DNA of 64,000 nt from a virus. Below are positions 4,523-60,834 of the stretch, piece after piece. Positions within the stretch are counted from its first letter, which is position 1, and every line of letters starts with the position of its first letter. The position numbers and the translations under genes were made by a program. The stretch spans positions 1 to 64,000 of IMG/VR virus record IMGVR_UViG_3300032579_000531. One strand, written 5' to 3'. The notes under the pieces were generated by a model, which was not told the origin of the DNA, did not search any database, and worked only from the letters and a program-made list of their open reading frames with translations.

Positions 4523-6019
4523 TTATATAGCATTATGGGAATTAATGGTCAACTTACGCACAAACCCATATACACTATAGGCTATAAACACACCAATGAT
4601 CACCAGCATTGTAGCACTAATCGGACTGGTCCAAAATGGGCTAAAATCTCCTCTTGATATTGTCATTTCTCTGCGGAAGTTTTCTTCCAACATAGGGCCC
4701 AGAATAAAGCCCAGCATTAAGGGTGCAGCCTCCATACCCAACTTCAGGAACGTATATCCGATTATACCAAAGACTACCGTGGTATATATATCTTCAATAT
4801 TGTTGTTGGTACTGTAGGTGCCGAGACAACAAAAGAATAAAATACACGGGAATAGTACTGCATACGGAATCTTGAATACTGTTAACCAAAGTCTAACCAT
4901 TGGTACATTCAAGATAAGCAAGAATACATTGCCAATCCACATACTTGCAATTAGTCCCCAAAATACGTCTGGGTGCCTGTCAATCATCTGCGGGCCCGGA
5001 GTAATACCTTTGATCATTAACGCACCTAGTATCAGAGCCATAACAGCATTTTCTGGGATACCTATTGACATCAGGGGAATAAAACTTGTACGAGCCGCGG
5101 CTTCATCAGCGGCCGCCTGTCCGGCTACTCCTTCAATGGCTCCGGTTCCTATTTCATCTCTATACTTGCTGAACTTTTTATCTATGGCATAAGCACCGTA
5201 TTGAGCAATAGTAGGACCGCCGCCAGGTAACAGGCCCAAGAAACTACCCACAATACTACCACGCAGGGCCGACGGAATAATACGTTTAAATTCGGCCCAA
5301 GTCGGCATTAATTTAATATTGCCAGTAAAAGGTGTACGCTCATCTCGTTTATCTAAGTTGCTGACAATTTCTGCAAGCCCAAAGCAACCAATGGCAATAC
5401 TAACTATTCCCACACCGTCCATCAAAAAAGGAAATCCCATTGTATAACGTGTAACACCACTATTGACGTCAGTACCAATCATGCCCAGCAGTACTCCGAT
5501 ACACACCATGCCCAGACCATTGACCAAACTACCAGTGGTAATTAAACTGACGCAGACAAATCCTAGCAACATTAACATTACATATTCTGTAGGACCAAAC
5601 AGGAATGCCACATCGCCTAGCATAGGAGCAAACGCCACAACAATAACAGCCGACACAGTTCCACCAATAAAACTACTGACACCTGCTGTAAACAGGGCAA
5701 GACCGGTGCGTCCTTGTAGGTGCATTTGATATCCGTCAATGCAGGCAACAATACTACTGGCATGCGGAATCTTCATGGTAATAGCACTTACACTATCTCC
5801 GTATTGTGCGCCATAGTAAATACCTGCCAACATAATAATAGCACCGGTTGTTGGCATTGCATAAGTCAATGGTAACAATAAACTAATGGTAGCAATCGGG
5901 CCCAGGCCGGGTAATAATCCGATCAAGGTTCCCACAAAGCACCCAATGGCGCAGTACATTAAATTTTGTACAGTAAATGCTGTGTCAAATCCCGATGCAA
6001 GGTGTGCAAGTATATCCAT
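4523..6019 (-). CDS. tctA: TctA, large membrane subunit of a tripartite tricarboxylate transporter
   Basis: A 498-residue, highly hydrophobic protein with about a dozen membrane segments and the TctA signature glycine-rich stretches: GTLIGLLPGLGPIATISLLL near the N-terminus, and the repeat-like SFLGLLPGGGPTIAQYGAYA in the second half, followed by EGVAGQAAADEAAARTSFIP. Length matches bacterial TctA (about 500). The family works with TctB and a periplasmic TctC receptor to import carboxylates such as citrate using an ion gradient. The start overlaps the tctB stop (TAATG). It is the last gene of the long early operon from 12256. Two TctC receptor genes lie 20 kb away (25.6-27.4 kb). A complete TTT transporter in a phage is unusual. 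Confidence 0.95.
   Translation of the reverse strand: MDILAHLASGFDTAFTVQNLMYCAIGCFVGTLIGLLPGLGPIATISLLLPLTYAMPTTGAIIMLAGIYYGAQYGDSVSAITMKIPHASSIVACIDGYQMHLQGRTGLALFTAGVSSFIGGTVSAVIVVAFAPMLGDVAFLFGPTEYVMLMLLGFVCVSLITTGSLVNGLGMVCIGVLLGMIGTDVNSGVTRYTMGFPFLMDGVGIVSIAIGCFGLAEIVSNLDKRDERTPFTGNIKLMPTWAEFKRIIPSALRGSIVGSFLGLLPGGGPTIAQYGAYAIDKKFSKYRDEIGTGAIEGVAGQAAADEAAARTSFIPLMSIGIPENAVMALILGALMIKGITPGPQMIDRHPDVFWGLIASMWIGNVFLLILNVPMVRLWLTVFKIPYAVLFPCILFFCCLGTYSTNNNIEDIYTTVVFGIIGYTFLKLGMEAAPLMLGFILGPMLEENFRREMTISRGDFSPFWTSPISATMLVIIGVFIAYSVYGFVRKLTINSHNAI
4524..4552 (-). promoter_or_regulatory. Early sigma70-type promoter inside the tctA 3' end
   Basis: TTGACC, 17-nt spacer, TATATA. The -35 and spacer encode the last residues of TctA (KLTINSHNAI). 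It drives the membrane-protein/infA/sod/erpA direction. Confidence 0.65.
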
Positions 6020-6435
6020 TATAGTGGTAAATTTAATCCAAGTAAATATTTGAATGCAAGTGTAATCAATACCAGCCCTATAGTAATTTTAATAACTCTT
6101 GCAATAGAGTAAGTTGATGCAGCAGTCGATGCAACTGAAGCAAGTATTACAATACCTAAGATCATGCCGCAGTATTCAGTAGCTACAGCAAACCCAAGTA
6201 GTGCCAGGGAAATAATAATAATGTTTCTAAATTTAAAATCAACCGGTACTGCATCTATCAAGCGACTTTTAATAATGATAATCAGTCCTAGTACAAGTAA
6301 GAATACACTGACTGCAATAGGAAACAGTCCTGCGCCCGGATCGGCAAAGTTGCCAACAGTATATCTAAATCCATTGAGGCCAAACACAATAGAAAACACA
6401 ATGAACAGTATACCAGTTAATAAGTTTTTATTCAT
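6019..6435 (-). CDS. tctB: TctB, small membrane subunit of tripartite tricarboxylate transporter
   Basis: A 138-residue protein with four predicted membrane helices (LLTGILFIVFSIVFGLNGF; LFPIAVSVFLLVLGLIIII; IIIISLALLGFAVATEY; ITIGLVLITLAFKYLLG) and the GNFADPGAGLFP motif typical of TctB. The start is placed at the second ATG (6435), which overlaps the upstream stop as ATGA; a start 4 codons earlier is possible. It ends TAATG into tctA, so both subunits are coupled. Confidence 0.92.
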   Translation of the reverse strand: MNKNLLTGILFIVFSIVFGLNGFRYTVGNFADPGAGLFPIAVSVFLLVLGLIIIIKSRLIDAVPVDFKFRNIIIISLALLGFAVATEYCGMILGIVILASVASTAASTYSIARVIKITIGLVLITLAFKYLLGLNLPL

Positions 6436-6677
6436 TGTTCTATCCACCCTTTAATTATTTCCATTGCTTTGACATTGTTGGTTTCATAGTATAATCTAAC
6501 ACTTTGTTGTTTACCTAAATCTCCATCATTGTTCCAGATCTTATCTACTTCGTTAAAGTAGTTTAGGAAGCCTTGTCCTAGTCTATAGTCTGGACTTTTA
6601 AGTAATTGCCAAGCATAGTGCTCCTCAAATTCCGCCCACCGTTCTTTGGAGATTCGGTATTGATTTGGATTTGTCAT
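6432..6677 (-). CDS. Small early protein, most divergent member of the cluster
   Basis: 81 residues, last of the 24 tiny genes before tctB. It has acidic and aromatic composition like its neighbours but ends IIKGWIEQ instead of the clear DAxxFxLKW tail. 4-nt overlaps on both sides. Function unknown. Confidence 0.7.
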   Translation of the reverse strand: MTNPNQYRISKERWAEFEEHYAWQLLKSPDYRLGQGFLNYFNEVDKIWNNDGDLGKQQSVRLYYETNNVKAMEIIKGWIEQ

Positions 6678-8108: not shown

Positions 8109-8304
8109 CTACATTATCCAATACTGATTTAGCATACCAGCCCATGCGGCCTTCTGGGTCCATGCGTTGTATATCTTCCAGGCCTGTTCTCATGAGTTCG
8201 TTTTGTTCTTGTAGGGTGTATATACGATTGCGTAGGTTGCCAGCTTGCATCCATGACATAAGCATAGATACAAACTTACCGGCTATAGCTGACCAATCAA
8301 TCAA
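8098..8304 (-). CDS. Small early protein without the tail, unknown
   Basis: 68 residues with an amphipathic, possibly membrane-associated N-terminus (AIAGKFVSMLMSWMQAG) and a coiled-coil-like RIYTLQEQNELMRTGLEDIQ. It lacks the LKW tail. The only likely membrane-associated member of the block. Confidence 0.65.
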   Translation of the reverse strand: MIDWSAIAGKFVSMLMSWMQAGNLRNRIYTLQEQNELMRTGLEDIQRMDPEGRMGWYAKSVLDNVDGK

Positions 8305-8582
8305 TATTCATTCCTTAATATATCAAATGCATTGCCGTATTCGTATCGGTTGTATTTCATTACCGGAAACTTGCTGTCTGATTGCCACCGGCGATAGACA
8401 GTCTTACACCATTGCCAATTGCCGTGTATATCCCGAACAGGCCGCCAGGCAAACCACCGCTCCCATTTTGGCATTGCAGTTTTAACATCGTGTTCGGGAA
8501 CTATTCTCCAGTTGACGCCATCGTACATTTCCCAGTTATTAGTAGATGGGTTATAGCGTAATTTTCCAGCTTCTACAGTCAT
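8301..8582 (-). CDS. Small early protein, W-rich, pair with the upstream gene
   Basis: 93 residues, ten or more tryptophans (WERWFAWRPVRDIHGNWQW), ending YGNAFDILRNEY. It resembles the next upstream product (8579), which has the same WYWREWIWY-type core and ends YGDNFDRLKDDR, so the two form a sub-pair with an altered tail. Confidence 0.72.
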   Translation of the reverse strand: MTVEAGKLRYNPSTNNWEMYDGVNWRIVPEHDVKTAMPKWERWFAWRPVRDIHGNWQWCKTVYRRWQSDSKFPVMKYNRYEYGNAFDILRNEY

Positions 8583-8848
8583 CTATCGTCCTTCAACCTA
8601 TCAAAGTTGTCACCGTAGTATCTATGTACTCCACCTGGGCCAAAGCGTTCTGTGTACCAAATCCACTCACGCCAATACCAACGACCATTTATACATCTGG
8701 GTAGTATAGAACAGAAATGTTTGTGCCATATGGCTTTATCTCCACTAATTCTACTCATCTCTTTCCTAACTTGAATATCATCTAGTTGCCAAAGTACGTG
8801 TTGTTGTTTGTATTCCTCTGCATCAAATTTATAATCTTCTATGTCCAT
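8579..8848 (-). CDS. Small early protein, W-rich, pair with the downstream gene
   Basis: 89 residues with RCINGRWYWREWIWYTERFG and the end YYGDNFDRLKDDR, paralogous to 8301-8582. Overlaps neighbours by 4 and 1 nt. Function unknown. Confidence 0.72.
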   Translation of the reverse strand: MDIEDYKFDAEEYKQQHVLWQLDDIQVRKEMSRISGDKAIWHKHFCSILPRCINGRWYWREWIWYTERFGPGGVHRYYGDNFDRLKDDR

Positions 8849-9072
8849 TACTTAAACCTTAGTCTAAACATTATAGCATCTTGCTCGTTAGCAAACCAAT
8901 AACAATCTTCATGCGGGCCTTCCACAACCACTGCCATGGCAATATCCGGGAAATCTCTCCACCAAGCGGCATTCCATTGCCCGATATGCTCTAAACACCA
9001 AGGCTCGCAGTCTGAGTAATGACTGTAGGTTTTTACAGGCACGGTCAGTACAGGATTACGATCTATAGCCAC
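8848..9072 (-). CDS. Small early protein, LKW-tail family (GTG start preferred)
   Basis: About 74 residues ending WFANEQDAIMFRLRFK. There is no ATG near the gene head. A GTG at 9072 gives a 10-nt overlap with the upstream gene, matching the overlaps elsewhere in the cluster; a TTG at 9087 is the alternative. Confidence 0.72.
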   Translation of the reverse strand: MAIDRNPVLTVPVKTYSHYSDCEPWCLEHIGQWNAAWWRDFPDIAMAVVVEGPHEDCYWFANEQDAIMFRLRFK

Positions 9073-9287
9073 CTCAGCATAAACCAAGTGTAGTCTTCGT
9101 CGCGATCAAATATATAATAAATTTCGCTACAATCGCTGTTGGAATCTGGCCTGCATCGAAACGCTTCGCGCCACCGCTGAGCATACTGGTTTGGCCGTTC
9201 TAAATGCTCAATCGGCAAGGTACGCTTGGCATTCCAAAACGCACGATTAAATGTATCGTCTAGCACATTAACTCGAATCATCCCCAC
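9063..9287 (-). CDS. Small early protein, LKW-tail family
   Basis: 74 residues ending FDRDEDYTWFMLRWL. Contains RWREAFRCRPD. Overlaps the upstream gene by 10 nt. Confidence 0.8.
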   Translation of the reverse strand: MGMIRVNVLDDTFNRAFWNAKRTLPIEHLERPNQYAQRWREAFRCRPDSNSDCSEIYYIFDRDEDYTWFMLRWL

Positions 9288-9583
9288 CTTAGTAAAAACA
9301 TAGTACGATCTTGTTCCGTATTAAAATGTACAACCATACCCCGTTGTGTTATAGCACCATTACTTGCCTCAATCCATTGATCAATCTCTTTTTGATTTAT
9401 ATGCCACCAAGCATAATCTTCAATGATTAACAATAAGTCTCGGTCAATTGGAGACGTAGCAGGAATAAACTTGCCGCCTGTTTGTATTTGTATAACACCG
9501 TTAAGGAAGGTTAGTTCCTGTCCATTGTGTTCTACAGTAACTTGCTCGAGCGTTGGCGTCAGTTGTTTATAGATCTTTTTCAT
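9278..9583 (-). CDS. Small early protein, LKW-tail family
   Basis: 101 residues ending FNTEQDRTMFLLRWG. A longer N-terminal half with beta-like VEHNGQELTFLNGVIQIQTG precedes the common helix and tail. Overlaps the upstream gene by 17 nt. Confidence 0.8.
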   Translation of the reverse strand: MKKIYKQLTPTLEQVTVEHNGQELTFLNGVIQIQTGGKFIPATSPIDRDLLLIIEDYAWWHINQKEIDQWIEASNGAITQRGMVVHFNTEQDRTMFLLRWG

Positions 9584-26471: not shown

Positions 26472-27413
26472 TTATTTATCTACTTCTGCGGCAATACGCT
26501 TTAGTATCTGCAAATTACGTTTTTGTAACACAAGTAGAGATTCTGAAGTGCCACCATATGTTTTAATATTAAGCATATCCATCTTTTCGCGGTACTTAGA
26601 TTCTTTAAATGCTGCATTAATGATTCGGTTCAACTCGTCTACGGTAGCCTTGGGAGTACCTGTTGGAGCCCATAACCCGTACCATACACCCACATTCAAT
26701 TCTGGGTGTGCAGTTGATATAGCAATAGCCGAGCTGTCGGGTTTAATTTTTTTAATAACTGATAATCCACCCTGGTCCAATGTAGCAAGTACACGGACCT
26801 TGTCGGCAGCAAAGAACGGCTGAATTGCTAACCATGTATCAAATCCCGACATGACCTGCCCGCCAACTAAGTCCTGCATTTGCGGAGTAGATCCTTTGTA
26901 CAAAATGATTGTCGGACGAGGCAACCCCTCTTTCTTAGCCCAATCATAAAATATATTAGCAGTATTGGCATTCCAAAACGCCAAATTAAATTTATCTGGA
27001 TTCGCCTTAACATAAAATTTAAACTGTTCGTAATTTTTAATAGGACTACCGGAGGGCACCGCCAGTACATAACTAATATTTGCTAACGGTACAATAGGAA
27101 CAAAACTTTGTTCTGTGTATTCCATACCTTGTGCTTTAAATGCTATGTTAGCGTCAAGAGCACCTGTTGCACCAACAAACAATGTTTTGCCATCGGGTTT
27201 TCCTTTAGCAACATAATTGGCACCAATGACAGCATCAGCTCCGGGCTTGTTTACAACAATACTTGGCATACCGTGTTCATTAAGAATTTCGCCAACAATG
27301 CGTCCTAGACTGTCTGTGGCCCCTCCCGGTGGATAAGGTACTACAATTTCAATTGGCTGTGCCGCAAATACTGCTGTTGATACAAATAATAATAGTGTTG
27401 CTAAAAATTTCAT
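26472..27413 (-). CDS. tctC: TctC/Bug-family periplasmic solute-binding protein
   Basis: 313 residues from the ATG at 27413, which overlaps the upstream stop as ATGA; an in-frame start 11 codons earlier would spoil the signal peptide. Signal peptide residues 1-17 (MKFLATLLLFVSTAVFA), then QPIEIVVPYPPGGATDSLGR, the TctC/Bug signature, and later NVGVWYGLWAPTGTP and TVDELNRIINAAF. Full family length. It captures a carboxylate in the periplasm and hands it to TctAB; the partner genes lie at 4.5-6.4 kb in another operon. The ligand cannot be predicted. Confidence 0.93.
   Translation of the reverse strand: MKFLATLLLFVSTAVFAAQPIEIVVPYPPGGATDSLGRIVGEILNEHGMPSIVVNKPGADAVIGANYVAKGKPDGKTLFVGATGALDANIAFKAQGMEYTEQSFVPIVPLANISYVLAVPSGSPIKNYEQFKFYVKANPDKFNLAFWNANTANIFYDWAKKEGLPRPTIILYKGSTPQMQDLVGGQVMSGFDTWLAIQPFFAADKVRVLATLDQGGLSVIKKIKPDSSAIAISTAHPELNVGVWYGLWAPTGTPKATVDELNRIINAAFKESKYREKMDMLNIKTYGGTSESLLVLQKRNLQILKRIAAEVDK
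26473..26480 (-). promoter_or_regulatory. Late promoter motif upstream of the split TctC
   Basis: Minus-strand GATAAATA, about 25 nt before the ATG at 26448. It overlaps the stop of the intact tctC gene. Confidence 0.5.
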
Positions 27414-28261
27414 TTCTTCATCCAATCTACGTAATTTTTGTTCCACTCAGCGGGATCATTGAATATGTCCTCACACAAACTGTGATGACGTGCTTTTGAA
27501 TCTCGTGTAAACTCTACAACAAAGCGACCAATTTTCTTTGGATCTTTAAACATACCAAAGTTATCGGGGAACTCTGTTTTAAGTTGTTCGTAAACATCTA
27601 GGTTAGCAGTAAAGCCATTAATTTCCATAATAGTCTTTAGTGCAGCAATACTTGAGTTAGCGGCTGTACACTTGATACTGCCGTTAACTGCGGCCAGCAT
27701 AGTCATGTCGCCAGCTTGCCATTCTGTATAAGGGATTTCGTATTCCAAGTCGTGCCAAAAGTCGTGCGGTAGTATATCTTGGTTGCCGTTCCACATCCAC
27801 TTAGGATGGCGGCTTTCTACAATAATGTGATCACCTCTATGTGCTAAGTGTCTCATAAACCAAGCATGGTCGTGGTGGCCAAATAATACACCCCAACAAA
27901 AGATAATATCATATTTTTCATCATTACCAAGAAAGAACTCTGTTAAACTTTGGTTAATGATTTCCCAGTTATTATCTTTATGATACTTAGTTAATAGTTC
28001 AGTTGCCGTTTCGCAAAACTCTGGACTAATCTCCACACCTGTGTAACTTGCGGCACCATTGCTTAAACACCAATCGCCTGTTTGTCCAATGAAGCTACCG
28101 ATATCTAATATACGTTTATTAAGTAATCGCTCGGGAGGCAATAGCCATTCGTGTTTTTTAATTGTAATGTTAGGGTTCATTGGAACGCCACACTCTGGTG
28201 GACGATTCGCTCTAAAGTCTTTTTCCAAGAACTCAGGATGTTGTTTGAAGGAGTTTATCAT
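27410..28261 (-). CDS. SAM-dependent methyltransferase
   Basis: 283 residues. NKRILDIGSFIGQTGDWCLS is motif I, YTGVEISPEFCETATELL motif II, YDIIFCWGVLFGHHDHAWF motif IV. The layout resembles tRNA-U34/CmoB-like and small-molecule methyltransferases. The ATG lies directly at the 3' end of the tmRNA gene; it reads into tctC with a 4-nt overlap. Substrate unknown. Confidence 0.82.
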   Translation of the reverse strand: MINSFKQHPEFLEKDFRANRPPECGVPMNPNITIKKHEWLLPPERLLNKRILDIGSFIGQTGDWCLSNGAASYTGVEISPEFCETATELLTKYHKDNNWEIINQSLTEFFLGNDEKYDIIFCWGVLFGHHDHAWFMRHLAHRGDHIIVESRHPKWMWNGNQDILPHDFWHDLEYEIPYTEWQAGDMTMLAAVNGSIKCTAANSSIAALKTIMEINGFTANLDVYEQLKTEFPDNFGMFKDPKKIGRFVVEFTRDSKARHHSLCEDIFNDPAEWNKNYVDWMKK

Positions 28262-28603
28262 TTTATCTTTGAAAGTGAGAGAAGCCCCCGGAGGGGCTGG
28301 TTGTTTCTGTTACGAGGCATTTCCTGCCCTAAGCAGTTTTTAGGCTGCTAATGCGTAAACTGAATCGTTTGCGTCTATAGATTTGCTTGATTTATGGTCA
28401 TCGCCTACCCTGTTGCCTTTGTCGCTATCTCACCATGTCGAAACCTTGTCATCCCCACCCAAGTATACTGTCCCACGGACTTTGCACTCCCATTTGGTTG
28501 CACAATATACTTAGGTGGAGATGCCGGGAATCGAACCCGGGTCCACAATGCCTTTACTCTAAAGGAATTACAACAATTCTATTGACTATCTAACCAATCC
28601 TTT
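28262..28603 (-). ncRNA. ssrA: Circularly permuted two-piece tmRNA (ssrA)
   Basis: Read on the minus strand the order is acceptor piece, intervening stretch, coding piece, which is the permuted arrangement. The acceptor piece (about 28603-28514) has a CTAAAGGA/TCCTTTAG stem, then a tRNA-like T arm (GGACCCGGGTTCGATTCCCGG) ending CATCTCCACC at 28514. The coding piece starts GGGGATGACAAGGTTTCGAC at 28456; GGGGATG pairs with CATCTCC as a 7-bp acceptor stem. The tag frame at 28372-28340 reads ANDSVYALAA-stop, close to the E. coli ANDENYALAA. The 57-nt intervening stretch folds into an 11-bp hairpin that extends the acceptor stem. The final CCA is not fully encoded (CC then T), so it must be completed after processing. 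A C-rich hairpin ends the coding piece. It would rescue stalled ribosomes and tag proteins for ClpP-type proteases. Confidence 0.93.
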
Positions 28604-28609
28604 AGTTCT

Positions 28610-28637
28610 ATCATACAATATAATAAAACTGCTACAA
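28610..28637 (-). promoter_or_regulatory. Promoter of the tmRNA gene
   Basis: TTGTAG, 16-nt spacer, TATGAT; start expected near 28603. Confidence 0.6.
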
Positions 28638-31383: not shown

Positions 31384-32363
31384 TTTGCACTCGCTACAAA
31401 CCTTAGGTCTCTGCTTGTGCTGCCCAACTCTTTTTTCATTTGTGGTCCGGCTTGTTTAACGTCAACACGGGCAACGTGTGTTTCTGGTTCGTCTTGAGTA
31501 GTTACATTTACCGGTTCGTCGGTCTTTGTATCAAATCCGTGTATGTTTAACTTGCGACCGTAACGACGTTCTAATTCTTGCCAAACACGATATCCACCTG
31601 TACTTTGTTTGTTGTCTGACACCAGGGTCAAGCCACGATTTAAAATTAAGAAACCATATAGGTCTGCGGCACGGTACTGATTCTTAGGACCAGAGTAAAC
31701 ACCTTGGATGACAAAACTGTCGCGATTTGATTTGTACGGACGACCAGTTGTACCCAGCTGACTTGTGCGGGTGCGGGTATCAAATACATAGTAAGTAACA
31801 GTACCGCGATCTACCCAAGACCAAAGTTGATAGCCGTGTCCCATTTCTGCTACTAAGTCGCCCATATGACTAGACTCATCACCTTTGGGTATAGGCTTGC
31901 CATCATTAGGCATAACGTCTAAATGTTCACGTTTGCTTTTGGCAACGCTAGGCACTAACGTAACTTCTGCTACATTTTTAATACCAACGTAAGCCTTTAT
32001 AGTAGGAATGCCTAATGCTTTTGCTACATTAGCTCTATGGTAACCATCTAAGATAAATCCATCACCAATAACAATAGGAGGTGCTTTACTAAAGTCCATT
32101 GTTTTATATTGTTCTACTTTAGACGAATCTAACTTAGGCAAATCTGTCTTAATAGAATTTACAGGAATATCTTTTAATTCAAATCCTGTAAAAGTATTAG
32201 TAATATAATCAGTATAATCACTGTGTAAATTTGAATCGTGATATTTGCGAATATAACCAATAATATCTTCTGTAGAAACAGATTGACTTTCCATAATACC
32301 AGTGCTACGACGTAGGCGTAGCTCGTCGCTGATTTCGTTTAGGAATAACTCAGATATTAACAT
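31380..32363 (-). CDS. ParB-like domain protein
   Basis: 327 residues from the ATG at 32363, which overlaps the amidoligase stop as TAATG. Around residues 75-130, LKDIPVNSIKTDLPKLDSSK ... VIGDGFILDGYHRANVAKAL is a ParB/Srx core (DGYHR motif). The C-terminal 150 residues (YQLWSWVDRGTVTYYVFDTR, YGFLILNRGLTLVSD) form a separate unrecognised domain of a type found in T4-like phages beside amidoligases. Confidence 0.78.
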   Translation of the reverse strand: MLISELFLNEISDELRLRRSTGIMESQSVSTEDIIGYIRKYHDSNLHSDYTDYITNTFTGFELKDIPVNSIKTDLPKLDSSKVEQYKTMDFSKAPPIVIGDGFILDGYHRANVAKALGIPTIKAYVGIKNVAEVTLVPSVAKSKREHLDVMPNDGKPIPKGDESSHMGDLVAEMGHGYQLWSWVDRGTVTYYVFDTRTRTSQLGTTGRPYKSNRDSFVIQGVYSGPKNQYRAADLYGFLILNRGLTLVSDNKQSTGGYRVWQELERRYGRKLNIHGFDTKTDEPVNVTTQDEPETHVARVDVKQAGPQMKKELGSTSRDLRFVASAK

Positions 32364-35158
32364 TACGTACTCATCTTTGCTCGACAACTAAACAAGCTAG
32401 GATCTTCTGCGCCGATACCACGTAACCAGGCCTGTGCTGTTGACCACGCACTGGTTTGGTCGTGGTCAGCAAAGGTGTGTACTACGTTTCCAGAATCAAG
32501 CTCGTATACAATCCACAGTGGAACACCATTGGGTGCTGTTGCTTGTACAGGATCGCCTGAACGGTATTGTATATACGCATCATCTCTACCAGTCAAATCA
32601 TTCACATATCGTTTGGCATCTATTGCCAGGTCTCGTAACTGTGATGAATGCCCGGGCATGGTTGGCAAGAAACCATAGATCCTGTTATCACTGCCGCCAC
32701 GTACTTCATAGTAGTCGCCAGTACTAGGACGTTGACTTAACATTCCCGCCGGCGGGGTAGTATTGTCTTGTTGCGGAGTACGATTTGCTACACGTTCTGC
32801 GCTGGCATCAGTTGGAACACTACTCATAGTAACTTCGCTACCACGTCTGCTTTCGATGCCTCGTTTAACTGCTTGCGCTTGAATCAACGTAATATCGTGA
32901 ACTTGATCTATTAGATTACCGCTGCTATCTTTAAACTGCCAAGTGCGTGGAACAGTATTGGCATCGTTTGCATCTTTTGGTGTGTCTTTTTCGTTGTGCA
33001 GTTCTAAATCGTCTACACTATCAAAATCGTGTTGCTGTGCTACCTTGACCAATAGTTTCTGTGCTTCTTCACGACTGACATTCATAATAGTATCAACCAC
33101 ACGGCCAGTTGGACGATAAACAACGTTCCAATTTGGTTTAGGTGCTTTGATACGTTTGGCTAGCTTTTCACGCTGACTCAACTCTGGTGCAGGTGCATCT
33201 GGATCTGCTGGACGTAAGTTAAATCCAATACCTTCTTTGCTGTACTTGTCGTATACTGAATCAGCAGCTTCGCCTTTGGTAGCAAAGCCGTTTAGAGTTT
33301 CTAGTGTTTCACCTGTGTTGACATCGTAAACTTCCCAGTCGCCTGTGGCACTACGCATTGGACGTAAGGTGTATTCCTTCTGGAAACCTTCCATACTACC
33401 GCCGGGACTGATTTTCTGTTTGGCACGTTCCCACGCATCGGATTTGGTATAACCGTTGTACTCTTGACCAACAACGGCCTTGCCTGTGGCATCCCATAGT
33501 TTCCAATCGCCTTTGGGTTCGTTGCTTAGAGCTTTATCGGCCCAGCTCTTTTTAAGTTCTTCACTGCTGATAGCACCTGTGGCAAAACGTGCAAATAAAT
33601 CCAATGCAGGATCACCTTCTACTGGTGCAATAAGTTTGTACAACTTCTTGTAGTATTCTTTGCGTTCTAGATCGGGACGGCTGGCAATATACATAGCCTG
33701 TGCATAGCGCATCAGGGTATTTTGTAATTTAGCGATATCTTCAAAGTAGTTTGTACCACCAGCTGAGCGGAACTCGATATACTTGGCACCTTTACGTTTA
33801 GTAGGATCTGGACTAGTATTTGCACCTTGTGGGTTAATACTTGTATACTTGCCAAAGCCAGCATTGCTGATCTCTAGAGCCTTTTGTGCTAGTTCCAACA
33901 GGTTGTGCTTCATTAGTTCTAGCGCACCAGCTACAGCTTCTTTGTTGCCACGCACACGTGTCTTGATCTTTTTCATTGCGGCTTCGGCATAGTGATTACT
34001 AGCACGACCAAATGATTCTAGCACGTGTTCATCACCTAAGAATAGTGCTAGTTTAACATAGTCAACATCGCCGCCCTTGTTAGGTAAACTAACGCCCATA
34101 TGGAAGCCAGTTGATTCGTTAGAATAAGCACCATTGGACTCGGCCCATTCAAAGAACTGTTGCAACTTGGCTAAACATTCTTGTAAGGGCATAGGAGGAC
34201 TAACAATCTCTACTGGCATGTTGTCCGAATCGTCTGCATCTAAACTTGAATCTGGTTCAAAAATCCAAGTTTCATCATCACGTGTAGCTGAATGATATCC
34301 ACCGGACACTTTGGTTTTAACACCTAATTCTTTACTTAAACTATCAGCTAAACTGCGAGCATTATCTTCGCTGAATCCACCCTCACTGCTCTGACCAGTG
34401 TAAGTAATAACGGGCCACACCAATTGAAATTCACTAGCAATGTCACTCATCCAACGCAGGCCAACATCACCAAAGAAACTACTATCGTCATCGACATAAA
34501 AATCATTGCGGAAGTCATCTAATGCTGAGTCGTAAGTGCCATCTTGTGCTTTAATACTGTCTTGAACTAGTTCGTCTAGTAGGCCTTCTGCTTCTTCGCG
34601 AGCATTAATATAGTTTGCATAGGCTTTGTTTGTTTTCATTGCCTCACGTTGTTCAACGGAGCTATTAAATTGAGGAGCCTCACTACCTTGTATCAAGGCA
34701 TCGCTAACTTCATCTTCGGACAGATCCATCAACTCTAACTGTTTACGAGTTTCGTCATCCCAATCAAAATCATCTTCTTCGATAATTTTTTTAATTAAAT
34801 CTTCTTGCTCATCACGGAAAGCATCGTACATTTTCTCGTCGACCCATTCCATATACTTTTCATCTAGCCCTTCTTGTAACTTATCCAAGTCTCGGCCATA
34901 TGTAGCATAACCGTACTCGTCGTTACCGAAAAAGTTTATAACATCATCGATGCTATTGCAACGCTCGTCAGCATCATAATCGGGTTCGGGATCTTCATCG
35001 TAATCGGCTTCACCGCCTTGTCCGGTAAACACAAGTTCTGCTTCAAATCCGGCCATGATGCCTTCTGCTTCGGGGCTACTAGCAAACTGCTGTAACGAAC
35101 GAGGATTCATGCGAAGCTCGTCTAATTGTTGTTCGGAAAGTAGGTCTTTATATCTCAT
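32363..35158 (-). CDS. Putative amidoligase-type large phage protein
   Basis: 931 residues, very acidic N-terminal third. The region of about residues 290-480 shows the ATP-grasp-like amidoligase pattern: GGYHSATRDDETWIFEPDSS, PVEIVSPPMPLQECLAKLQQ, STGFHMGVSLPNKGG, LALFLGDEHVLESFGR and KYIEFRSAGG. The C-terminal 350 residues hold three or four repeats of about 60 residues (WxVYDxxTGExxxTxxGFxxKxEA type), probably small beta domains. It might join amino or carboxyl groups on a peptide or protein. Neighbouring ParB-like genes are co-transcribed. The start has no clear Shine-Dalgarno. Confidence 0.7.
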   Translation of the reverse strand: MRYKDLLSEQQLDELRMNPRSLQQFASSPEAEGIMAGFEAELVFTGQGGEADYDEDPEPDYDADERCNSIDDVINFFGNDEYGYATYGRDLDKLQEGLDEKYMEWVDEKMYDAFRDEQEDLIKKIIEEDDFDWDDETRKQLELMDLSEDEVSDALIQGSEAPQFNSSVEQREAMKTNKAYANYINAREEAEGLLDELVQDSIKAQDGTYDSALDDFRNDFYVDDDSSFFGDVGLRWMSDIASEFQLVWPVITYTGQSSEGGFSEDNARSLADSLSKELGVKTKVSGGYHSATRDDETWIFEPDSSLDADDSDNMPVEIVSPPMPLQECLAKLQQFFEWAESNGAYSNESTGFHMGVSLPNKGGDVDYVKLALFLGDEHVLESFGRASNHYAEAAMKKIKTRVRGNKEAVAGALELMKHNLLELAQKALEISNAGFGKYTSINPQGANTSPDPTKRKGAKYIEFRSAGGTNYFEDIAKLQNTLMRYAQAMYIASRPDLERKEYYKKLYKLIAPVEGDPALDLFARFATGAISSEELKKSWADKALSNEPKGDWKLWDATGKAVVGQEYNGYTKSDAWERAKQKISPGGSMEGFQKEYTLRPMRSATGDWEVYDVNTGETLETLNGFATKGEAADSVYDKYSKEGIGFNLRPADPDAPAPELSQREKLAKRIKAPKPNWNVVYRPTGRVVDTIMNVSREEAQKLLVKVAQQHDFDSVDDLELHNEKDTPKDANDANTVPRTWQFKDSSGNLIDQVHDITLIQAQAVKRGIESRRGSEVTMSSVPTDASAERVANRTPQQDNTTPPAGMLSQRPSTGDYYEVRGGSDNRIYGFLPTMPGHSSQLRDLAIDAKRYVNDLTGRDDAYIQYRSGDPVQATAPNGVPLWIVYELDSGNVVHTFADHDQTSAWSTAQAWLRGIGAEDPSLFSCRAKMST

Positions 35159-55905: not shown

Positions 55906-55913
55906 TATTTATT
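55906..55913 (-). promoter_or_regulatory. Late promoter motif 4 nt before the cyclase ATG
   Basis: AATAAATA, CTTG, ATG at 55901; no ribosome site between. Confidence 0.5.
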
Positions 55914-56385
55914 TTATTTGAATTAGGTTATCTTTGAAAATACTCCAACATTCTTCCCAGGTCCAGTGTAGACTAGATTCTTTAACTTGTGCTCGATCTA
56001 GAGTTAAGCATTTACGAACAGCTTCTTCAAGATCCCAATCCATACACCCGTTTACACCCGGCTCAATAATGTCTATAGGGCCTTGTACCGGAAATGCCGC
56101 TACTGGAGTTCCTTGTGCCATTGCTTCTATAATAACTAAACCAAATGTATCTGCGCTACTTGGGAATACAAATACATCTGCTTGATTATAATAGTCTACT
56201 AGTTCTTGTCCTGATTTATACCCCACAAACTTAGCCCACGGTAACAATCTACGAGCATCTTTCATGTACGGCCCATCACCTACAATGACCAACGTATATT
56301 CTGTGGGATCTAATTCTGCTAAAGTTGCCAACAAACTGCTGTATTTCAAAATAGCCGCCGCAGTCCTGTACATATAAACTAACAT
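55909..56385 (-). pseudogene. C-terminal fragment of a family-4 glycosyltransferase
   Basis: 158 residues covering only the second (nucleotide-sugar) domain of GT4: LVIVGDGPYMKDARRLL, VDYYNQADVFVFPSSADTFG and LVIIEAMAQGTPVAAF with the E-x7-E motif. The N-terminal acceptor domain is missing. In another frame the bases just upstream encode RYYKENLDDVS, which looks like the missing KEKNLD-type linker, hinting at a frameshift and older full gene. The large curlin gene follows directly upstream, so insertion of the curli block may have cut it. Confidence 0.72.
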
Positions 56386-56436: not shown

Positions 56437-58641
56437 TTAGTTACCCTGGCGAACAGTTATTGTGCCGCAGGTGGTATAACAAGTTTGTGTAACACTATAA
56501 CTTTGTCCACCAGTTTGTGTTAAATTTACACTTGCTGGAGCACCGCTATTAACTAAAGATATTGACGCAGAGTTTGCGCCGCTTGCACCTGTATTTGATT
56601 GCGTTACTGTAGCAGAGTTGCTGTTACCTGTTGCACTAACACTGATATAACTGGCACTAGTTCCTGTTTGACTTGTTGTTACTGTATTGCTATTACCTGT
56701 TACACTGGCAAATAATTGATTGCGAGCTGTACCTGTTTGTGTAATACCAACGGTGTTTAAGTTTCCATTAATAGTTACACTAGCAAACTGGCCAGCATTG
56801 GCAACAGTATTCTCTTGCACTACAGTCAAGTTATTACCAGTACCATTGACATAATCATATTGATAGTGCCCACCTTGATCAAGTCCTGTTGCTGTGCCTG
56901 TGCTACTTGTACCTTGATTTAAATTAAGAGTGTTACTACCTCCTGCAGAATACAAGTCTATTAGGTTATTACCTGTATGTGCAGTAGGATCACCTTGGCG
57001 TACAGTTATATGATTACTGCCTCCAGTAATAATTGCAGCAGTAGCAGTAGCACCATCTAATCTATTGCCTGCACCAACTTGCGTAATATTAATTGCGTCT
57101 CCATTACCAGTTTGGTTAATATAAATTACATTATTAGTAAGTCCCGGCATAGTGACTGCGTTAACTTGATTCTGTTGTGCGGTAGTAATTGTACTAGAGC
57201 CACCCGACGTGGATGTGTTGATCAATGTAGCTGAGCCATTGTTGGCTGTAGTTGTGCTACCATCACTCCATGTTGTGGTTGTAATAGGTTGGCTATAGTA
57301 GCTAGTAGTACTACCACTGGTACTAGATGTTGTGATAACAGAGTTTGCTGTGCTTACTACAGTTGGAGCAGAGGAACCGCCGGTTCCGCCGGTCTGTCCA
57401 GCAGTTAGCGGAGTACTACTCATACCACCAGATAATGTATTAGTTTGTGCGGCTGTTGGATTTTCTACTCCAGTGAAGGTAGCACCTTGTCCTGTTAATC
57501 CCAAGTTACCACTGAGCAATGTTCCATTGTAGTTACTATTAGTAAAGAACAAATACAAGTTACCATTACTAGCAGTACCTTCAACTAATATGCGCCCAGT
57601 ACCCAATGCTCTAAATGATCCATCAGCATTAACCAGAATCATAGTCCACGGATTAGTTGCACTATCACTTCCTGTATTAGGAATAAACGTAACATACTGA
57701 GTACTACCGATTGCTGTCCAGCTACCTGTTTCGTATGTGCCACCTGGGCTTGTGCTATATACCTGACATGTTGCGGTTTGTGTGCAAGCACTGACATTCC
57801 ATTGCGTATCTGCTACTTGACTTGCACCAAAGTGTACTCCGGTAAATGCCGAGCTTGATAAGGTTGTTTGTGTTGCTGTACCAACTACTGTAGAAACTGC
57901 GCCATCGCTATAGGTTGTTGTAGTTGTAGGTGTTGTTACAGTTACTTGTTGATTGCCAATAATAACTGTACTGGTTGCAGTTGTTGTAGTAGTGCCTGTT
58001 ACAGTAACTGCCGGAGCTCCGCCCACACCTTGTGTTGCCTGCGGAGTGACCATTGTAGTAAATCCAGCACTAGCACCAGGAGTACATGTAAAGATAGTTG
58101 TACCTGCGGCACATGCACCTGCATAGGTTCCTACTTCAATACTGGGATTGCTACTGGCATTTGTTCCAGACAAGTAGAAACTGATATTGTATGTTGAGCC
58201 TGCGGTTACACTTATACTTTGATAGATACCGTCGTAACTACCAACTGCGCCATCGTACCATTGATAAGGACTCCAATACCCAGCAGCCGATGGTACTGTT
58301 CCGTTTTGATACCATACTCCCCAATCAGCTGGTGCTTGTATTCCCACAGAGGTTGATCCACCATATTGTAAGTTACCATTGGCTAATAAGTTAGTGGATG
58401 ATCCCGACTTGGTAACTGCGGCATTGGTAAATGTCCAGTAACCTGGATCCTGTCTAAAAGCAAAACCAATGTAGTCTGCACCGGTTGTGTTGGCTGTAAA
58501 ACTATAATTGTACTGTATATTACCGCTAGAATAATTTAATACCCCACCCAAGTATCCACTTGGAAGATTCTGTGCGTGTGCCTTGGGAGTACAGAATCCA
58601 ACAAGGCTGGCGATAAGGATAGTGGCAAGTATTTTAAACAT
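56437..58641 (-). CDS. Large curlin-repeat protein with N-terminal domain
   Basis: 734 residues, signal peptide 1-23 (MFKILATILIASLVGFCTPK, AHA-Q). N-terminal part (about 25-190) is a beta-sandwich-like, PEP-CTERM-protein-style domain (SYDGIYQSISVTAGSTYNIS). Middle is T/S/G-rich linker. C-terminal part (about 510-734) is curlin repeats of the N-x-V/I-x-x-TQ-x-G type (NVIYINQTGNGDAINITQVG, LNTVGITQTGTARNQ, NSNSATVTQSNTG). It would be a CsgB-like nucleator or a large fibre subunit. It follows the FecR-like gene by 1 nt. Confidence 0.83.
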   Translation of the reverse strand: MFKILATILIASLVGFCTPKAHAQNLPSGYLGGVLNYSSGNIQYNYSFTANTTGADYIGFAFRQDPGYWTFTNAAVTKSGSSTNLLANGNLQYGGSTSVGIQAPADWGVWYQNGTVPSAAGYWSPYQWYDGAVGSYDGIYQSISVTAGSTYNISFYLSGTNASSNPSIEVGTYAGACAAGTTIFTCTPGASAGFTTMVTPQATQGVGGAPAVTVTGTTTTTATSTVIIGNQQVTVTTPTTTTTYSDGAVSTVVGTATQTTLSSSAFTGVHFGASQVADTQWNVSACTQTATCQVYSTSPGGTYETGSWTAIGSTQYVTFIPNTGSDSATNPWTMILVNADGSFRALGTGRILVEGTASNGNLYLFFTNSNYNGTLLSGNLGLTGQGATFTGVENPTAAQTNTLSGGMSSTPLTAGQTGGTGGSSAPTVVSTANSVITTSSTSGSTTSYYSQPITTTTWSDGSTTTANNGSATLINTSTSGGSSTITTAQQNQVNAVTMPGLTNNVIYINQTGNGDAINITQVGAGNRLDGATATAAIITGGSNHITVRQGDPTAHTGNNLIDLYSAGGSNTLNLNQGTSSTGTATGLDQGGHYQYDYVNGTGNNLTVVQENTVANAGQFASVTINGNLNTVGITQTGTARNQLFASVTGNSNTVTTSQTGTSASYISVSATGNSNSATVTQSNTGASGANSASISLVNSGAPASVNLTQTGGQSYSVTQTCYTTCGTITVRQGN

Positions 58642-58642
58642 A

Positions 58643-59785
58643 TTAATTCTGCTTGGTTGTTATAAAGGTATTGCCACCGGCATTGATTCTGTTGGTGATG
58701 GTTACATTACCACTCTGTGTCTGTACAATAGTAGAATTTTGACCTTTAGGAGTTGTAACACAACTTGTATTACTATTAGCATCACTGCGACATAACTGTA
58801 CACTGATTGCATCTACAGTAGCTTCTACCCCCGATGATTTTCTATAATCGGGAAGCAATTGATTCTTGGGTGCGGCTAACAAGTTACCAAATTCTGCAGC
58901 AAGTTGATCATTCATTATTTGTAACATGCTTTCAAGGAAGTCCTGATCTAATAGATTACGTTGTAGTGCATTGGTATAAACTTGATTATTTTCTGCAACC
59001 AATACACTACTTAGATCAACACCCTTAAGAAAATCTTGACTAAGTGCCGATTCAGCTGGCAACTTTTCTGCTTGTTGGCGTTGCTGAGCAGTTTTAATTT
59101 CTTGCGGTGGTGCCAGGATTAACATATTTCCAATAGCATCTTCAGTTAAGTGTAAGGTAACAGGCCTTGTGGGTGCTACATTACGTGCGGATACTTTAGT
59201 TGCCTGGAATGCTTGATCTAATGTTACAGTACCGGCGTCATTCATAACATCAATTTTACCAGTCACACAATAACGTTCAATCTCATCGGGCAACATATTT
59301 TTACGTGGACAGCTTGGCAATAGAATAAATGTGCTGGAACCTAGCTCATCAACTGTAGCAGTAAAATCAGTACCGCGAACAGCAACGGTAGCAGTAGGAG
59401 TGTTGATAGCCACCTTATTAGGATTGTTATGAGCAATCGCCCCTGATGCGTAGCGGACTGTACCACTAGCCATGTTAAGAGCAAGTTTGCCAGCATCTTT
59501 ATTTTTTGGATCATACACGAATTCGTCAATGACCAGTTTGGAGTTTTCATTCACTTGCACCTTAGTGTCATCGGCAAACACAATACCAACCTTGCCTTGC
59601 TTGGTAGTAATGGCGTCAGCCATATCAACACCGGTACCTTTACTACCAGTAAGTGTTGTTTTTGCTCGTTGTATTTGCGGAGGATTGTTTACTTGTTCTG
59701 TGATTGTGCCAATGGCAGCATGAGCGGAAATAGACAACAATAATGTTGCCCAAATTAATCGTCTTGTTGCTTGAACCATACACAT
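58643..59785 (-). CDS. Secreted FecR-domain protein
   Basis: 380 residues, signal peptide about 1-23. ADAITTKQGKVGIVFADDTK then VQVNENSKLVIDEFVYDPKN is the FecR domain (as in secreted FecR/LysM-like proteins), followed by GTVRYASGAIAHNNPNKVAI and TPTATVAVRGTDFTATVD. The C-terminal 60 residues (NSTIVQTQSGNVTITNRINA) look like a short curlin-like end. It overlaps the small upstream gene by 31 nt. Its place between curlin genes and a CHASE2 cyclase matches known FecR-CHASE2 pairs. Confidence 0.85.
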   Translation of the reverse strand: MCMVQATRRLIWATLLLSISAHAAIGTITEQVNNPPQIQRAKTTLTGSKGTGVDMADAITTKQGKVGIVFADDTKVQVNENSKLVIDEFVYDPKNKDAGKLALNMASGTVRYASGAIAHNNPNKVAINTPTATVAVRGTDFTATVDELGSSTFILLPSCPRKNMLPDEIERYCVTGKIDVMNDAGTVTLDQAFQATKVSARNVAPTRPVTLHLTEDAIGNMLILAPPQEIKTAQQRQQAEKLPAESALSQDFLKGVDLSSVLVAENNQVYTNALQRNLLDQDFLESMLQIMNDQLAAEFGNLLAAPKNQLLPDYRKSSGVEATVDAISVQLCRSDANSNTSCVTTPKGQNSTIVQTQSGNVTITNRINAGGNTFITTKQN

Positions 59786-59931
59786 CGTTGTAAGTCTCTC
59801 ATTAATTGATCTTTTGGCGTACCAGTAAGTCTGTGCGCCAGCTCTATAAAATCTACGGCTCTACTAGCCACATTAGACTGACCATCGCTCCACTGTTGAT
59901 ATACTGTGTTTAAGAAGCGAAGGTCTGTCAT
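59755..59931 (-). CDS. Small cytoplasmic protein inside the curli operon
   Basis: 58 residues: MTDLRFLNTVYQQWSDGQSN then ELAHRLTGTPKDQLMRDLQR. No signal peptide. Starts 3 nt after the curlin stop. Too short and unlike CsgE or CsgC. Unknown. Confidence 0.65.
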   Translation of the reverse strand: MTDLRFLNTVYQQWSDGQSNVASRAVDFIELAHRLTGTPKDQLMRDLQRCVWFKQQDD

Positions 59932-59934
59932 ATA

Positions 59935-60834
59935 TTAATGATGCTGTACAATGTTCCAAGTATTACTGCTACCACTACTTTGAATATTTGTAGTGTTGTT
60001 ACCGCTTGTAGCTGTTTGGTTCACAGTAAATGTATTGCTATTACCAGTTAACCCTAATACTAACGTGTTATCGTTACTACCAGTTTGGCTTGCTGTAATA
60101 GTATTACTAGAACCTGTTAAACTTCCAACTACTGCTAGGCCAGTTGCATTATAACCACCAATAGTAATACTGTCGCCATTGGAGCCACCAGTTTGTGTCA
60201 ACCCAAATGTATTACTTGCACCTGTACTGTTTAAAGTAACACTAGCATTAGTTGCCGCTGTTGTTGTAGTCCCTTGAGTCATTGTTAGACTATTACTTGC
60301 GCCACCGTTCATTGTGATATTATCAGTATTATTTGTACCGTTAACAATAGCAACAATAGAGTTACTACTACCGCCTGCTGTCACAGCGGTAAAGTTGTTA
60401 CCTGTACCTAATAAGTTAATATTCAAATTGGCAGTATTACCAGTTTGTGTTACACTAATATTATTACTTGCACTTGTAGCAGAGCCATCATTGTTACTAT
60501 TGATCACTGCTGTTGCATTGTTACCTGTCACAGAGTAATTGTAATTGTTACCAGTTAATCCGTTGGCCACAGTTGTCTGGATACCTAATTGTAAGGTATC
60601 GCCTGTGCCTACTTGATTTACTGTTACGTTATTACTATTACCAGTAATTACTGCCGGTGTTGTTGCACTTGAACCTGTGCCTTGTACACCTTCTACTGCA
60701 TCACCTGCGCCATTTTGTGTAATTGAAATGTTACTGTTACTACCTGATTGATTGATGTAGATGGTGTTATCTGCACCAAATGCACTTATAGTCACTACGG
60801 CTAGCATTGTTGTTATTATTTTCGCTAGTTTCAT
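59935..60834 (-). CDS. Curlin (CsgA-like amyloid subunit)
   Basis: 299 residues, signal peptide about 1-20 (MKLAKIITTMLAVVTISAFG). Mature part is almost only N/T/S/G/V with curlin repeats spaced 20-25 residues: NTIYINQSGSNSNISITQNG, NNVTVNQVGTGDTLQLG, NNISVTQTGNTANLNINLLG, TNTFTVNQTATSG-like ends and the terminus WNIVQHH. N-x-x-x-TQ/NQ-x-G is the core of CsgA amyloid. Exported by CsgG and polymerised outside the cell. Confidence 0.88.
   Translation of the reverse strand: MKLAKIITTMLAVVTISAFGADNTIYINQSGSNSNISITQNGAGDAVEGVQGTGSSATTPAVITGNSNNVTVNQVGTGDTLQLGIQTTVANGLTGNNYNYSVTGNNATAVINSNNDGSATSASNNISVTQTGNTANLNINLLGTGNNFTAVTAGGSSNSIVAIVNGTNNTDNITMNGGASNSLTMTQGTTTTAATNASVTLNSTGASNTFGLTQTGGSNGDSITIGGYNATGLAVVGSLTGSSNTITASQTGSNDNTLVLGLTGNSNTFTVNQTATSGNNTTNIQSSGSSNTWNIVQHH

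Follow-up and report, generated by a model that had tools for sequence, protein, structure and literature searches.

The genes at positions 56437-60834 of a 64,000-nucleotide stretch of viral DNA, hereafter referred to as the window, form the central part of a curli (type VIII secretion) module encoded by a phage. The window represents bases 1-64000 of a 78,032-base IMG/VR virus record and contains a curli set consisting of the CsgG pore, CsgF and a secreted curlin-repeat subunit. Related viruses swap domains at the N-terminus of a second curlin, which suggests that an infected cell shows interchangeable binding modules at its surface. On balance, we favour the view that the phage module would provide an infected Gram-negative cell with a surface fibre whose second curlin bears exchangeable heads.

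In the order of transcription on the minus strand, the module comprises CsgF, CsgG, curlin 1, a FecR-domain protein, curlin 2, a fragment of a GT4 glycosyltransferase and a CHASE2-cyclase (Table 1). The order CsgF-CsgG-curlin-FecR-(curlin)-AC is that of the type VIII secretion system (T8SS) of pelagiphages. An initial annotation of this DNA had been confined to the three open reading frames between 56437 and 60834. These are real, correctly placed and all encoded on the minus strand, but CsgF, CsgG and the CHASE2-cyclase of the same module were omitted, and the annotation made no reference to a viral origin. The GT4 fragment has no counterpart in the near-identical module of L004 and is regarded as an accessory. 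All ten virus records tested lack CsgE. The T4 late-promoter motif TATAAATA was not enriched and has zero copies within the module, and scans for sigma-70 promoters and terminators gave modestly more matches than shuffled sequences, on which no weight was put.

Table 1. Genes and protein domains of the curli module in the window
Feature	Position	Strand	Evidence
CsgF, 155 aa	61868..62335	-	PF10614 8.9e-12; phrog_35372
CsgG outer-membrane pore lipoprotein, 320 aa	60906..61868	-	PF03783 7.2e-40; 28 related viral loci
Curlin 1, signal peptide and pure repeats, 299 aa	59935..60834	-	PF07012 1.7e-4, above cut-off
FecR-domain protein, 380 aa, periplasmic	58643..59785	-	PF04773 2.9e-11; phrog_37870 over full length
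FecR C-terminal beta tail, residues 316-380	58646..58840	-	AlphaFold2; alignment of 22 FecR proteins
Curlin 2, 734 aa	56437..58641	-	signal peptide, domain A, linker, domain B, linker, curlin solenoid
Domain A, predicted jelly-roll head	58042..58572	-	60 viral loci; predicted-fold comparison
Domain B, second head domain	57358..57852	-	conserved in 9 viral loci
Curlin 2 predicted solenoid, residues 504-734, about 10 repeats	56440..57132	-	AlphaFold2, fold alignment, motif count
GT4 glycosyltransferase fragment	55909..56385	-	PF13692 4.8e-22
CHASE2 and class III nucleotidyl cyclase, 684 aa	53850..55904	-	PF05226 3e-38, PF00211 2.8e-12

Curlin 1 consists of pure repeats after its signal peptide, as had been recognised at the outset. 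It contains nine strand-Q motifs against 3.0 +/- 1.5 in shuffled sequences, a number reached in 0/2000 shuffles, and its PF07012 match lies over the cut-off. The repeats of curlin 2 are found in its C-terminal part, where residues 501-734 hold 11 strand-Q motifs (3.1 expected; 0/2000 shuffles); the shuffle test gave no motif excess for residues 1-500. The PF07012 score of curlin 2 is 16.8 bits, below the cut-off of 20.7 bits. An AlphaFold2 model built on a 29-row alignment contains a regular ladder of about 20 strands, equal to about ten repeats, at residues 504-732 (pLDDT mostly 80-90), and residues 479-734 align to beta-helices with Z scores of 17.1 (SufB-SufD), 11.9 (HxuA) and 11.3. Motif excess and predicted ladder thus bear out the approximately ten repeats first assigned to this end of the protein, and the structure prediction proposed as a check returned a beta-solenoid for curlin 2. 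Judging from its position and repeats, curlin 2 may act as a CsgB-type nucleator or anchor for curlin 1. An export signal of the E. coli N22 type was not recognised.

In the same model, domain A (residues 30-178) is confident at about 80 pLDDT and the middle of curlin 2 is poor. Fold comparison by VIA-align placed residues 22-197 next to ConA-like lectins at Z 8-9, values for a widespread fold that are no proof of glycan binding, and next to CBM4/6/35 at Z 5-6. The N-terminal beta-sandwich noted earlier is therefore supported at the level of prediction, and a distant relationship of domain A to CBMs is possible. Searches of Pfam, PHROGs, PDB sequences and named phages returned nothing for domain A, and its assignment to a known family was dropped on this ground. 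What had been taken for a long linker includes a second conserved domain, domain B (about residues 264-428), and only the remainder is linker; this conservation rules out residues 200-500 as a mere linker. Database searches with domain B gave no informative match, and its AlphaFold2 model is of low confidence. An assembly artefact as the origin of the fusion between domains A/B and curlin was ruled out by the identical architecture in records from other metagenomes. We found no published description of the anatomy of curlin 2, nor, in the texts found, of heads on it.

The heads of curlin 2 vary between related viruses. The protein is headless in L006, L015 and L018, carries domain A only in L036, domain B only in L007, where it makes up the whole N-terminal part, and both domains in the window, L032, L034, L035 and L037. 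L090 combines another domain with B, and PA14 heads are present in L010 (1.7e-11), L014 (6.9e-13) and the cultured phage HTVC008M (2.7e-6). Identities of domain A and of the module genes are discordant, which argues for shuffling of the heads: L034 is 76% identical to the window in domain A, compared to 46% in CsgG, 37% in FecR and 35% in curlin, and L006, L007 and L010 have CsgG proteins 78-83% identical to that of the window, yet lack domain A. In most of the 60 domain A loci in IMG/VR, a barrel with a terminal Phe follows; 8 of the 12 tested were assigned to PF03797 (Autotransporter; best 5e-13). In L018, L019, L053 and L077, domain A belongs to a barrel protein of its own, encoded next to the curli genes; no second copy was detected in the window's record or in G674, both of which carry A-curlin fusions and are fragments. 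That curlin replaces the autotransporter barrel as surface anchor is the best argument that domain A is meant for the outside of the cell. The combination of subunit and adaptor suggested initially fits these data, as a pure-repeat curlin, a headed curlin and an exporter stand in an operon-like array and relatives exchange the heads on a retained curlin chassis; all three proteins, FecR included, may conceivably co-assemble into one fibre, as was also proposed.

With regard to bacteria, a motif scan recognised no heads in 68 curli loci. It flagged 21 ORFs, which proved on inspection to be other proteins, wrong-frame ORFs, or curlins whose repeats were of low complexity or had been missed. Across 369 gammaproteobacterial genomes, the only match to domain A was partial and weak. 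A bacterial source of the heads is unsupported by this limited sample of loci and genomes.

The FecR protein begins with a signal peptide, followed by a periplasmic domain of the FecR/PupR type, a disordered linker (about residues 222-307) and a beta tail, and its body has the fold of FecR/PupR signalling domains (Z 15.6 to PupR, and 14.1). An anti-sigma domain is absent, and with only about 25 signal-peptide-like residues preceding the FecR domain there is no space for one. A FecI/FecR-style anti-sigma role is therefore unsupported, and the designation of FecR as the sensor could not be upheld in this sense. The CHASE2-cyclase is the likelier sensor of the module. In the window it has kept both metal Asp residues, the substrate Lys and the Arg, and its transition-state Asn is replaced by Ser, which makes the cyclase product uncertain. 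L006, L018, L019, L090 and the phage Melnitz share the Asn-to-Ser form; the canonical form occurs in L007, L010, L015, L021, L027 and HTVC008M, in otherwise similar modules.

The tail of FecR was predicted by AlphaFold2 as a confident 65-residue domain with six strands spaced 10-12 residues apart (pLDDT about 80). A short curlin-like stretch had been noted earlier at this end of FecR; by sequence, the likeness to curlin is non-significant. The curlin profile gave p = 0.07 for the window protein and was non-significant in most family members as well; structure matches were weak (Z about 3 or less), and the tail was accordingly not accepted as a proven curlin repeat. The similar strand spacing is suggestive of a curlin-like tail without being significant. 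Phage FecR copies align through to the end of the tail, and Gln379 is the sole invariant residue C-terminal to the FecR domain in 22 phage FecR proteins with identities down to about 27%. Among the matches listed for 289 alphaproteobacterial genomes, FecR stops before the tail, at best around position 291, and in the alphaproteobacterial loci fetched, the match reaches about 319.

Homing endonucleases and a DNA ligase are encoded on the 78 kb record, which has many further PHROG matches. The virion hallmarks Gp23 (capsid) and Terminase_6N were searched across the 78 kb record itself and neither was found; the record is probably a fragment. Single virus records combine Gp23 and terminase with CsgG and domain A (G014, G015 and G017), and G009, with a CsgG 70% identical to that of the window, shows a partial Gp23 match. 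A 931-aa protein with an Amidoligase_2 domain is encoded at 32363-35158 (-) of the window and also occurs in G013 (69%) and G009 (43%). In L002, a 457-aa subtilase (PF00082 7.5e-16; 8140-9513, i.e. record positions 68140-69513) lies downstream of a 1105-aa repetitive protein on the same virus record.

Information on the host comes from a tmRNA and from transporter genes. The tmRNA at 28276-28627 (-) of the window belongs to the permuted two-piece type of betaproteobacteria (RF01850 2.4e-51; RF04321 1.2e-28) and encodes the tag ANDSVYALAA. Genes of a tripartite tricarboxylate transporter are located on this virus record at window positions 4523-6019 (-), 6019-6447 (-) and 26472-27446 (-). A profile search of the window identified TctA (PF01970 1.3e-141) and TctC (PF03401 1.3e-29), and one member of the scanned ORF set matched TctB (PF07331 2.7e-11), probably the 142-aa ORF at 6019-6447 adjoining TctA. 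TctA, TctB and TctC are typical of Burkholderiales. Based on the beta-type tmRNA and the Tct matches, the host is probably a freshwater betaproteobacterium, the presumed habitat being read off these same features and not from a sample label. The tmRNA type of a phage is a fallible clue to its host, as exemplified by Melnitz.

The nearest bacterial copies of CsgG are about 41% identical to the window protein and mostly alphaproteobacterial. In 80 CsgG records, a phage-type FecR or cyclase was present only in those resembling mis-binned phage contigs. The phage-type curli module occurs on MAG contigs of GTDB-species genomes (L101, L117, L119, L120, L121 and L148), which are probably phage contigs mis-binned into bacterial MAGs; L120 and the IMG/VR record L029 both have a length of 20,286 bases. 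The genes of the module are under purifying selection, with dN/dS values of 0.08-0.20 for CsgG, curlin 1, FecR, AC and the curlin part of curlin 2, computed against L006 and L010, where dS was estimable. By eye, heme oxygenase-like, PcyA-like bilin reductase-like and fatty-acid desaturase-like genes were noticed by the curli module of L090 (572-1799 and 11362-12087).

From the observed gene content and order, domain architecture, head shuffling and purifying selection, together with the predicted solenoid and jelly-roll folds, we infer the following course of export, polymerisation, head exposure, ligand binding and benefit. CsgG with CsgF would export both curlins, of which curlin 1 would be the bulk fibre subunit and curlin 2 a modular adaptor that docks into the fibre, or nucleates it, by its C-terminal solenoid. 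The N-terminal heads (A and B in the window, PA14 or others in relatives) would be shown outside as glycan- or surface-binding modules and be traded between phages through recombination. The CHASE2-cyclase, perhaps with the periplasmic FecR as its partner, may report on envelope or fibre status and make a putative cyclic nucleotide. The likely benefit would be that neighbours are kept close to a cell shortly before it bursts ("sibling capture") or that receptors are covered against superinfection. A broader proposal, which we put forward tentatively, is that curlin serves phages as a general amyloid chassis for swapped receptor-binding or lectin-like heads, i.e. as a programmable adhesive fibre, and that the phage-specific beta tail of FecR docks at the fibre base and couples it to the CHASE2-cyclase.

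Defence may instead be the principal function, with fibres or heads masking receptors or blocking the adsorption of competing phages and the binding of other cells being incidental. The diversity of the heads would suit an arms race, and superinfection defence was proposed for pelagiphages (PMC9599517), but the present data do not separate defence from the capture of cells; we consider this priority of defence fairly unlikely. Against surface display stand the sub-threshold PF07012 score of curlin 2, the lack of a recognised N22-type export signal and, as the main weakness, export itself. The two N-terminal domains of curlin 2 contain Cys residues and may be hard to export. CsgG conducts unfolded chains, and E. 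coli failed to secrete large folded CsgA fusions (mCherry, Bla, PhoA; PMC6302416). Since E. coli CsgG did not export folded fusions above a certain size, the heads must either cross unfolded or stay behind as a periplasmic plug. In the latter case, the heads would fold in the periplasm, the curlin part would thread out via CsgG, and curlin 2 would anchor the fibre to the pore or gate the pore where CsgE is lacking. The absence of CsgE and the N-terminal position of the heads, where an export signal is expected, agree with such a plug. Free variation of the heads (A, B, PA14, none) would, however, be odd for the plug of a conserved pore, and domain A is also found on an autotransporter barrel, whose passenger normally sits outside, so that retention of the heads appears distinctly unlikely. 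It is very unlikely that CsgGF is a pinholin- or secretin-like pore for lysis timing or envelope remodelling with curlins of secondary importance, as proposed from structure models and gene order for Melnitz, which has csgGF and for which csgA/csgB were stated to be missing (Buchholz et al., PMC9004378): the argument leaned on missing curlins, but next to csgGF, Melnitz's own record (MZ577097.1; L194 5277-8071) annotates FecR, a cyclase and two proteins with curlin repeats, and the curlins of the window are under purifying selection.

Display of exchangeable heads on curlin 2 thus remains the favoured reading. On the reason for phages to carry curli genes, three papers disagree (sibling capture, superinfection defence, import, lysis pore), and exchangeable heads would give a specific and testable one, namely the fibre as a display platform.

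Phage curli modules have already been published for marine pelagiphages and Melnitz, and the window is a further member. CsgF and CsgG were described in pelagimyophages, and freshwater fonsimyophages were said to lack both (Zaragoza-Solas et al. 2020, PMC7029224); two families of pelagiphages were reported to carry curlins, FecR and AC (Wittmers et al. 2022, PMC9599517). Clumping was not seen with Melnitz (PMC9004378), which counts against adhesive display, although curlin 2 of this phage is headless. Like the window, the pelagiphage T8SS consists of CsgF, CsgG, curlin, FecR, second curlin and adenylate cyclase in identical order, lacks CsgE and is distinct from bacterial operons. In place of SAR11 features, the window has TctABC and a tmRNA of betaproteobacterial type, and the three upstream genes that were tested include no histidine kinase. 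Its heads A and B and its FecR tail are undescribed in the pelagiphage papers (PMC9599517, PMC7029224), the terms being absent from their text, and neither mentions PA14. The cultured phages Melnitz and HTVC008M share the gene order of the module with the window, their FecR proteins are 38-43% identical to it, and domain A was undetectable in both by tblastn. Curlin 2 is headless in Melnitz, in contrast to that of the window; a "hypothetical protein" of HTVC008M (KC465899.1; L195 7091-8416) is the PA14-headed curlin mentioned above (Curlin_rpt 5.2e-8).

Bacterial curli systems, such as csgBAC-DEFG of E. coli and those of alphaproteobacteria, have the CsgG and CsgF families and curlin repeats in common with the window, but no heads were recognised in them, and within the 80 CsgG records the phage-type FecR and cyclase are limited to those that look mis-binned. 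Type V autotransporter adhesins are comparable in that most related phage loci attach domain A as a passenger to a PF03797 barrel, whereas in the window curlin repeats stand in for the barrel. Engineered curli display by CsgA fusions resembles the window in placing a foreign domain on curlin for presentation on the fibre. The phage heads differ from it in being natural, N-terminal, larger and attached to the second curlin, and a headed phage curlin would provide such engineering with a precedent from nature.
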